Shown in pieces: positions 33,381 through 50,376 of a stretch of 64,000 nt of DNA. The stretch is taken from assembly GCF_015687155.1 (NCBI RefSeq), contig NZ_JADPQF010000003.1:496001-560000 (forward strand), in the 5' to 3' direction. The stretch comes from Aliikangiella sp. G2MR2-5 (GTDB taxonomy: Bacteria; Pseudomonadota; Gammaproteobacteria; Enterobacterales; Kangiellaceae). The notes under the pieces are model-generated. The model was not told where the DNA came from. It saw only the letters and a list, made by a program, of their open reading frames with translations, and did no database searches. Every line of letters starts with the position of its first letter. The stretch's first letter is position 1. The translations under genes and the position numbers were made by a program.

Positions 33381-33401
33381 TAAGTCGGGGTGTCTGATGA
33401 T
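33381..33401 (+). repeat. REP-like motif, copy at left edge of accessory patch
   Basis: Contains TAAGTCGGGGTGTCTGATGA, the same motif found in the array at 35744-35887 and, inverted and slightly changed, at 34475-34498. Probably a RAYT-mobilised REP sequence. Confidence 0.6.
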
Positions 33402-33428: not shown

Positions 33429-33975
33429 ATGAAAAAACTTTTATTCGTAACCATATTTTTTCTTACTTCTTACTTCTTACTTCTTACTTCTTACTTCTTA
33501 CTTCTTACTTCTTACTTCTTGCTTAAATTACTCTAGTTATAGAAATCTGTTGCAGAAATATGACAATAAAGGAGTAATATTAGTAAGAGTTAATGATCCT
33601 ACAGGCCTTAGAGCATCTCAGTTGGAAGTAGTCAATTTAAGTACAAATGAAAAAATTGTACTTACTGACGCTCTCATAAACTTAAATAGAAATAAGTTGC
33701 AATTGTTTAAGCTACCCGTTGGTCAATACAAATTAAGTAGGTATCGCTTCCACTCATATGCATCTCTAGATATTTCTAGTTCTGATTTTAGTTTCTACGT
33801 TAAAGAAAATGTAGTCAATTATGTAGGAGATTGGCACTTTGAGCAAAAGTGGAAAAATGCTCAGGCAAAATCTGTTAGTTATGAGGTTCGATATAGTGGC
33901 GAGACTTTACAAGAGTTTAGGTCACAGTACGAGCAATACTTAGATAGTTGGAAAGTAGAAAGTTTTATTGAATAA
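33429..33975 (+). CDS. Candidate phase-variable lipoprotein, out of frame in this copy
   Basis: An ATG at 33429 begins a signal peptide (MKKLLFVTIFF) that runs into a 7-bp tandem repeat. In the present copy that frame ends at TAG 33534-33536 after 35 codons. The downstream 141-codon frame (33550-33975) continues upstream without a stop through the repeat and contains an ideal lipobox LTSC followed by LNYSSYRN. The two frames differ by one base (121 mod 3), so losing one heptamer or gaining two joins them into a lipoprotein with Cys29 and a roughly 150-residue mature part. The mature part is hydrophilic and strand-rich (LPVGQYKL, NVVNYVGDWHF), with no known domain. A TTG start at 33550 is possible but has no ribosome site. 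Confidence 0.7.
33460..33522 (+). repeat. (TTCTTAC)8 heptanucleotide tandem repeat plus one variant unit
   Basis: Eight perfect units at 33460-33515 followed by TTCTTGC (33516-33522). It lies inside the signal-peptide coding region. Every reading frame gives the cyclic hydrophobic peptide FLLLTSY, with no stop in any frame. The G of the last unit creates the lipobox Cys codon in only one frame. Confidence 0.95.
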
Positions 33976-34089: not shown

Positions 34090-34470
34090 TCAAGAAACCG
34101 CCGACCTAACACTCGGCATTAACCGCCGACTCACCGGTACTTGTTCATCATTACTCATAATTAAATTACCTCCACCGGCTTCGCTGATTAATGATTGAAC
34201 TTGATCGAGATTAACCAGATAGGAACGATGAACTCGTAAAAAAGTACTCGGTAGTTCACTTTCCAGTTTTTTCAAACTGCCGCTAAAGAGCTTCATTTGT
34301 TTGTCTTTTAAATAAAGCTCAACGTAATCTCCTGAAGCCTTGCAGTAAAAGATATCCAATGTCGAAACTTTTTCCCGCTTACCACTGCTATTCAGAGTAA
34401 GCGCTTTTGGGGTTTGTTTCTGGCTGGACTGGGCAAGTTTATATTCCAGTTTGGCAACCTGCTTTTCTTC
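34090..34470 (-). pseudogene. Truncated LytTR response regulator (DNA-binding domain only)
   Basis: The minus strand encodes a LytTR DNA-binding domain (FYCKASGDYVELYLKDKQ, FLRVHRSYLVNLDQV, PVSRRLMPSVRSAV) preceded by a linker (EEKQVAKLEYKLAQ). The receiver domain is missing: the frame hits a TAG at 34471-34473 exactly where the repeat element at 34475 begins. The intact cousin is the regulator at 44085-44945. The remnant lacks a good start codon (a TTG at 34359 opens an 89-codon frame). Probably disabled by insertion or deletion at the repeat. Confidence 0.75.
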
Positions 34471-34678: not shown

Positions 34679-35665
34679 CTAAGATTGATAGAGCAACTTT
34701 GCCTGACCCATTCCTTTAATCCAGTTTTTCTTAATGGCCTTGGCTTTTTCTCTAAGCTTCTCAATAGACCCCATCATCGTCGGCTGTCCCTGATTGAGCC
34801 TTTGAATTTGGTCGAGCCAATTGCTTTGTCGAAGATTTAAACGATGAAAGGTTGAAGTTACATGTGGAGGAATTGTTGCTTTATTGGGATGAACAATTGC
34901 TCTACCAGTCCATTCCACTAAAGCCAGATAATCATTCAGGTTAAACGAATAGAGCGATTCATCCGCTGATTGATTCACAGGAGTGAGCGCTTCATTCATT
35001 TGAATAACGGAAGTTCTTAGCTTATCAATTCGCTTTTTGATTGAAGTATGGAGAGAGGCTTCAAGTTCCTGAGTTATCCCTGCTCGAATTGGATTAAGGT
35101 CAACATAAGCCATACAGGCAAGTACCGAAGTTTCATCGAGTAACGGAATGGATTGATAACGGGATTCCCAGAAGCGACCTTTGATACAATCTTCCAAGTT
35201 GCTCTGCTTGGCCAAAGGCTCGTTCAGCCTTGTCATAAACCAGGAAAGCTTACCGAGTCGCTTTCGATATTTGGTAAGTTTAGTTTTATCCGCAATGATG
35301 GCTTGCTTCTTCAACTCTCGAAGTTTGTTGTTCTCGGGTTTATCCAGCCGCCCCGGATAAGCCAATAGCCAACGTTCAGCCACTTGCTCGTCCGTCCATG
35401 CTAAAGACGCCTTGGGGTCAATCTTCAATACCAGATGGTAATGATTGTCCATGACGGCATAAGCGTAGAGAGAAACGGCAAAGATATTAGATAACTCCAA
35501 CATCCGTTTTTCCAGCCAAGCTTTTCGATGGTCATAGTTGTTTCCCGTTTCGGCATCTTCACCACATAAATATGCTCGCCGAACACAGCGGGAGATACAG
35601 TGATAAAATCCAGCTGAATCTTTGTCGACCAGATACTTTCTAGGTATAGGCATATTTTTTCTCAT
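34679..35665 (-). mobile_element. REP-associated tyrosine transposase (RAYT, IS200/Y1 superfamily)
   Basis: 328 residues. The Y1-transposase domain occupies the N-terminal part: PRKYLVDKDSAGFYHCISRCVRRAYLCG, then YAYAVMDNHYHLVL with the HxH metal site (His75, His77), as in IS200-like enzymes. A C-terminal extension (about 200-328) is usual for this long RAYT subgroup. RAYTs are usually single-copy domesticated enzymes that move REP sequences. REP-like copies lie just upstream (35744-35887) and further left. Starts at 35665 or 35653 (MPIPRKY) are both possible. The frame is intact. Confidence 0.85.
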
Positions 35666-39364: not shown

Positions 39365-39397
39365 GCGAGTAGCGAGTAGCGAGTAGCGAGTAGCGAG
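39365..39397 (+). repeat. (GCGAGTA)4 heptanucleotide tandem repeat
   Basis: Four perfect units (39365-39392) and a partial fifth, ending 33 bases before the response-regulator ATG. It lies in the promoter or 5' leader, where copy-number change would alter spacing rather than reading frame. Confidence 0.9.
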
Positions 39398-50318: not shown

Positions 50319-50376
50319 AGCCCCTGTTAATTGTTAATTGTTAATTGTTAATTGTTAGTAGGGGAGGCTTTTTTCT
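50319..50376 (+). terminator. Terminator-like hairpin with (TTAATTG)4 loop
   Basis: AGCCCCT (from about 50319) can pair with AGGGG...AGGCT (about 50360-50369) followed by six T residues. The loop consists mainly of four TTAATTG units (50327-50354). The upstream gene ends about 390 bases earlier, so it may terminate an unannotated RNA instead. Confidence 0.45.
50327..50357 (+). repeat. (TTAATTG)4 heptanucleotide tandem repeat
   Basis: Four perfect units 50327-50354 plus a partial fifth, 260 bases upstream of a response-regulator gene. Confidence 0.9.

Follow-up and report, generated by a model that had tools for sequence, protein, structure and literature searches.

A heptanucleotide array within the signal peptide of an Aliikangiella lipoprotein gene: a probable contingency locus, OFF as sequenced

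The window, by which we mean the whole stretch of 64,000 nucleotides of Aliikangiella sp. G2MR2-5 that was analysed, contains a tandem array of the heptanucleotide TTCTTAC at the beginning of a predicted lipoprotein gene. The features of the locus, in window coordinates, are the following.

33385..33398, plus strand: REP-like element TCGGGGTGTCTGAT, differing at one base from TCAGGGTGTCTGAT and lying 30 bases before ATG 33429; part of the neighbouring RAYT cluster
33429..33459, plus strand: start codon, n-region and first part of the hydrophobic core (MKKLLFVTIF), from translation
33456..33461, plus strand: T6 tract adjoining the array, a weaker second slippage site
33460..33515, plus strand: array of eight perfect units, (TTCTTAC)8, reading FLLLTSY in each of the three frames
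33516..33522, plus strand: ninth unit, variant TTCTTGC, whose TGC (33520-33522) is the lipobox cysteine codon in the body frame
33520..33975, plus strand: lipoprotein body frame, cysteine plus 150 residues and TAA; predicted beta-sandwich, family member
33534..33536, plus strand: TAG stop of the ATG 33429 frame at eight perfect units, from translation

In translation, the frame opened by ATG 33429 comprises 35 residues, MKKLLFVTIFFLTSYFLLLTSYFLLLTSYFLLKLL, and then meets TAG 33534-33536. The lipoprotein body lies in a second frame, offset by +1 from the ATG, which is free of stops from 33451 to the TAA at 33973-33975 and carries FLLLTSC followed by 150 residues. The frame shift between ATG and body coincides with the array. 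Upstream of the lipobox the body frame contains no ATG, GTG or TTG, the earliest being TTG 33550, which lies 3' of the cysteine. The start has the parts of a lipoprotein signal peptide, namely a positively charged n-region (MKK), the core FLLLTSY and, in the body frame, LTSC, which fits the lipobox pattern [LVI][ASTVI][GAS]C. The Shine-Dalgarno match for ATG 33429 is weak, and a search for a promoter-like site 5' of this codon found none.

Translation of the start region for n = 1-11 perfect units gave an in-frame lipoprotein only at n = 1, 4, 7 and 10, with the cysteine at position 15, 22, 29 and 36, respectively. The out-of-frame classes end after about 20-42 residues, and at n = 8 and n = 9 the ATG frame is stopped at 34-35 residues. 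An earlier note on this DNA had described the signal peptide of ATG 33429 as entering (TTCTTAC)8 and stopping at TAG 33534, and translation reproduced these coordinates. It had also described a downstream frame that is open through the repeat and carries LTSC and about 150 residues, which we found as well, with the refinement that the repeat consists of eight perfect units and one variant unit. Finally, its claim that the loss of one 7-base unit or the gain of two would take the gene from OFF to ON agrees with our translations, in which 7 or 10 units join the two frames into a complete lipoprotein (Cys29 at 7 units).

A REP-associated transposase-like (RAYT/Y1) gene is found at window 34679-35665, and all five TCAGGGTGTCTGAT-like repeats in 1.6 Mb (33385, 34480, 35781, 35841 and 35866) lie within about 1.3 kb of it. 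Moreover, a LytTR DNA-binding domain is encoded at 34090-34470 on the minus strand; its 5' side is apparently truncated beside a REP-like repeat.

Judged by its sequence, the downstream frame belongs to a real family of predicted lipoproteins. It was open in 0 of 5000 dinucleotide shuffles, and a relative search recovered a protein from genome G028 (32% identity, E 2e-21) as well as weaker relatives in other members of the bacterial family. A profile built from nine members found relatives in 25 of the 40 genomes of this family. The start regions of 30 fetched loci, two of them not readable, were read by eye. About 23 of the 27 readable relatives have a lipobox near the N-terminus and four have a plain signal peptide by this reading, while the strict lipobox pattern in a script flagged 14. 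The lipoboxes include LSGC, LSAC and ITSC and are placed as in the window gene, and the window protein retains the invariant family positions G68, Y70 and Y101. A second, intact member (L249, C23:483967-484482, MSGDRVQVFLVRIFLIFSIVLITSC) lies in the same genome, about 12 kb before the window. The body is a real gene but out of step with its ATG, so the sequenced allele is OFF. Under the E. coli Lol rule, its leucine at position +2 suggests an outer-membrane location.

No tandem repeat of at least 3 units of 5-9 bases was found in the start regions of the relatives among the readable loci. The earlier note had held that a normal, repeat-free gene in relatives would make the locus a simple artefact. 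Such genes do occur, in distant relatives of about 14-30% identity, but since the array here is a perfect one of 56 bases, they point to a lineage-specific repeat rather than an artefact. A syntenic repeat-free allele, sought via the LysE neighbour, was not found; in genome G005, the neighbour of the 71% orthologue of LysE on the corresponding side is another gene. A search by peptide patterns for close homologues of the gene in 84,980 species genomes returned none, and neither viral contigs nor plasmids contained a further copy of the locus.

The AlphaFold2 model of the body (pLDDT 82, pTM 0.77) is mostly beta and has one helix close to the C-terminus. No Pfam or NCBIfam family matched the body above cut-off, and no PDB entry matched the model at E <= 0.001, the best Foldseek hit having an E of 0.002 and a low TM. 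This hit and a PDB profile match to 4oq1 (E 0.003) were both rejected as clues to function, as they reflect a generic beta-sandwich only.

The array is no chance occurrence. Within the 5.02 Mb genome it is the only exact array of 3x TTCTTAC. Arrays of 4x TTCTTAC with one mismatch allowed were detected in five of 395 genomes of the order, and exact 4x arrays in one of 399 genomes of the phylum, namely in this genome alone. Across the ~2.0 Mb of the genome that were surveyed there are five perfect heptamer arrays, of which only (TTCTTAC)8 is found inside a gene start. The units of the other four, all outside gene starts, are GCGAGTA, TGTTAAT, TTAAAGA and CAGCAAG.

These four arrays have settings of their own. 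(GCGAGTA)4.7, the second perfect heptamer array of the window (39365-39397), lies in a divergent intergenic region and ends 32 bases before ATG 39430 of a response-regulator gene, whose expression it could tune. (TGTTAAT)4.7 (window 50325-50357) lies within a GCCCC/GGGG hairpin followed by a T-run, a terminator-like structure with a predicted fold of -23 kcal/mol; given this position, the length of the array would be predicted to alter the terminator loop. (TTAAAGA)9.9 (G000:C23:457922-457990) lies at the 3' end of a gene for an ammonium transporter, where it overlaps the stop codon, and (CAGCAAG)8.4 (L106:14227-14285) is situated between sfsA-like and metK genes, upstream of metK.

Two of the four features of a contingency locus are present at the window locus: the repeat type and position, a perfect tandem repeat in the 5' coding region with a unit that is not a multiple of 3, and the unit-dependent ORF, full at some unit numbers and truncated at others. 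The best explanation of the locus is a translational contingency locus, and we consider it probable that it is one of the simple-repeat kind. Through slipped-strand mispairing in replication, a type II (lipoprotein) signal peptide would gain or lose TTCTTAC units in its hydrophobic core. Seven-base loops are commonly believed to evade repair by MutS. As 7 leaves a remainder on division by 3, the start, the core and LTSC share a frame only at unit numbers that equal 1 modulo 3 (4, 7, 10). At 4, 7 or 10 units an exported, lipidated protein would be made, the other two classes would run into an early stop, and the eight units of the sequenced genome would correspond to OFF. TTCTTAC contains no stop in any frame and translates cyclically in all of them, TTC TTA CTT CTT ACT TCT TAC giving FLLLTSY. 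The core thus survives any unit number, and the junction to the body alone decides. An A to G change in the last unit yields TGC, the LTSC cysteine codon in the body frame; the other two frames soon meet stops. Of the earlier proposal of a phase-variable surface lipoprotein in the OFF state, the lipoprotein, the repeat within its signal peptide and the broken frame stand, while switching is suggested by analogy with Aequorivita (see below) and surface exposure is a possibility only. Slippage rate, reversibility, selection for switching and membrane location are what we infer for the locus.

By the way they work, the closest known systems are Neisseria opa and E. coli neuO, and the window locus is homologous to neither. 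In opa, CTCTT repeats are found in the region coding for the leader peptide (PMC3960869). The likeness consists in a simple repeat, its unit length no multiple of three, within the region that codes for the signal peptide, where slippage shifts the frame of an exported protein (PMC3960869). However, the opa unit has five bases and the gene family encodes outer-membrane barrel adhesins that are substrates of signal peptidase I, whereas the window locus has a unit of seven bases, a lipobox and a lipoprotein of 151 residues that is not related to them. An Opa protein is ruled out by the unit TTCTTAC, by the lack of a Pfam family above cut-off and by the predicted small beta-sandwich. neuO of E. 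coli K1 has the heptanucleotide AAGACTC in its 5' coding region, and there, too, one unit class modulo 3 is ON (PMC13001214). Its product, however, is a prophage O-acetyltransferase, and the repeat encodes part of the enzyme rather than a signal peptide. neuO itself is ruled out, as the window unit is not AAGACTC and the body has no Pfam or NCBIfam family above cut-off. A heptamer repeat also controls the surface proteins encoded by hmw1A and hmw2A of Haemophilus (PMC2651432), but it lies in the promoter and tunes transcription, not the reading frame. More generally, heptamers are cited in PMC4679880 as the long simple repeats that occur most often in the majority of bacteria. TAACTGA in Beggiatoaceae and GGGAATC in Xanthomonas likewise dominate among the long simple repeats (PMC4679880, PMC4692102); unlike the window array they are mostly intergenic and not frame switches, and the other four perfect arrays of the genome resemble these.

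We scanned 84,980 species genomes for ATGAAR with three TTCTTAC units 8-38 bases further on. The scan matched 19 loci, seven of which are at or near the starts of genes for exported proteins. A family of secreted proteins in Aequorivita (Bacteroidota) has the heptamer in its signal peptide; its homologues and paralogues all begin with ATGAAAAAATTTAC-(heptads)-TTGATCTTT. The unit counts compare species and paralogues, not isolates of one strain: copies with 3 (L191) or 6 heptads (L204) are in frame, with full frames of 385 and 162 residues, and copies with 1 (L194), 2 (L192, L202), 4 (L190) or 5 heptads (L189, L151) stop early, their bodies still being open. Another paralogue, L200, is free of repeats; its signal peptide is of the ordinary kind and its frame intact. 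As read from translations, the number of TTCTTAC units in the predicted signal peptide varies among relatives in Aequorivita and sets the reading frame. Several of the OFF copies have too few units for an easy slip back and may be dead genes. In addition, some copies of the family have central deletions that fuse the signal peptide to a C-terminal sorting-type tail.

In two genomes of Nitrospinota, 7 of 12 TTCTTAC arrays are located in the first 60 codons of ORFs of at least 150 codons, against a background of 5.5%; the corresponding P of about 1e-6 is optimistic, since both genomes were picked for having one such array. Going by names given from sequence reading, these ORFs include an LptE-like (L172), a TolC-like (L173) and a FliP-like protein (L187), among others. 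In the two Nitrospinota MAGs (L166-L188), many TTCTTAC/TTCTTGC arrays are preceded by purine-rich heptamers of the GAAGTAG and GGCAAGA types. Together the two heptamers could fold into a hairpin that encloses the start of genes for exported proteins, as a dispersed element caught in signal peptides. In a contig of an Acidobacteria MAG (L158:488-650, reverse strand), (TTCTTAC)18 runs into an N gap. A universal rule that places TTCTTAC in signal peptides was checked in samples not chosen for gene starts and rejected: in the order, the four further genomes with arrays have them between genes or at gene ends, and those of Flavobacteriaceae other than Aequorivita are likewise intergenic, so that use as a signal peptide is not universal. 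We put forward only tentatively, as something we rather doubt, that TTCTTAC has been acquired repeatedly and independently as a switch in signal peptides, here, in Aequorivita, in Nitrospinota and possibly in Chloroflexota. An array landing at the start of a gene for a secreted protein would, whatever the frame, supply a good hydrophobic core and could thereby create an on/off locus.

The window locus can be explained in other ways. In this genome heptamer arrays form a general class of microsatellites, so a neutral origin or a dead gene is conceivable: growth of the heptamer without selection would have broken the frame, leaving a fresh pseudogene with no selected switching. We regard this as unlikely but worth serious consideration, as the other long heptamer arrays of the genome have no role at gene starts, heptamers are so frequent among long simple repeats in most bacteria, the neighbouring LytTR gene looks truncated and the intact paralogue L249 is present. 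Also speaking against a switch are the repeat-free relatives, the TTCTTAC arrays away from gene starts in the order and in Flavobacteriaceae outside Aequorivita, the weak Shine-Dalgarno match and the lack of a promoter-like site before the ATG. However, the body is stop-free over 151 codons and its lipobox is intact, the array sits exactly between start and lipobox, where a change of length is best tolerated, and the present state is one slip from ON.

That the unit number mainly sets the length and hydrophobicity of the signal peptide, so that the ON states of 4, 7 and 10 units differ in targeting or processing and OFF is a by-product, would fit the seven residues gained per three units (Cys 22, 29, 36). 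We think this very improbable, since the protein is abolished at two of three unit numbers, and on/off control therefore dominates over length tuning. There is hardly any more to be said for a body made without the ATG, be it through slippage of the ribosome or in transcription, say at the T6 that adjoins the array, or as a soluble protein from TTG 33550, which is a possible start: a signal peptide opens nearly all relatives, T6 is short for programmed slippage and no Shine-Dalgarno match was noticed before TTG 33550. An assembly or consensus error in the unit number is just as remote. Tandem repeats are often miscounted, but the 63-base array is shorter than an ordinary short read, and a miscount by one unit would still leave the array in the signal peptide.

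The trick that a translational contingency locus would use here is known from other bacteria, but one and the same heptamer recurs in the export signals of unrelated bacteria. If the locus switches, a probably free-living bacterium would play an Opa-like lottery with the frame of a signal peptide, and contingency loci would extend more widely than host-adapted pathogens. The occurrence of TTCTTAC in signal peptides across phyla suggests a simple rule by which genomes could be searched, namely for repeats whose translation is a hydrophobic core whichever frame is read. Should the heptamer indeed be a recurrent switch, it would operate in largely free-living lineages, in which contingency loci have been little studied.
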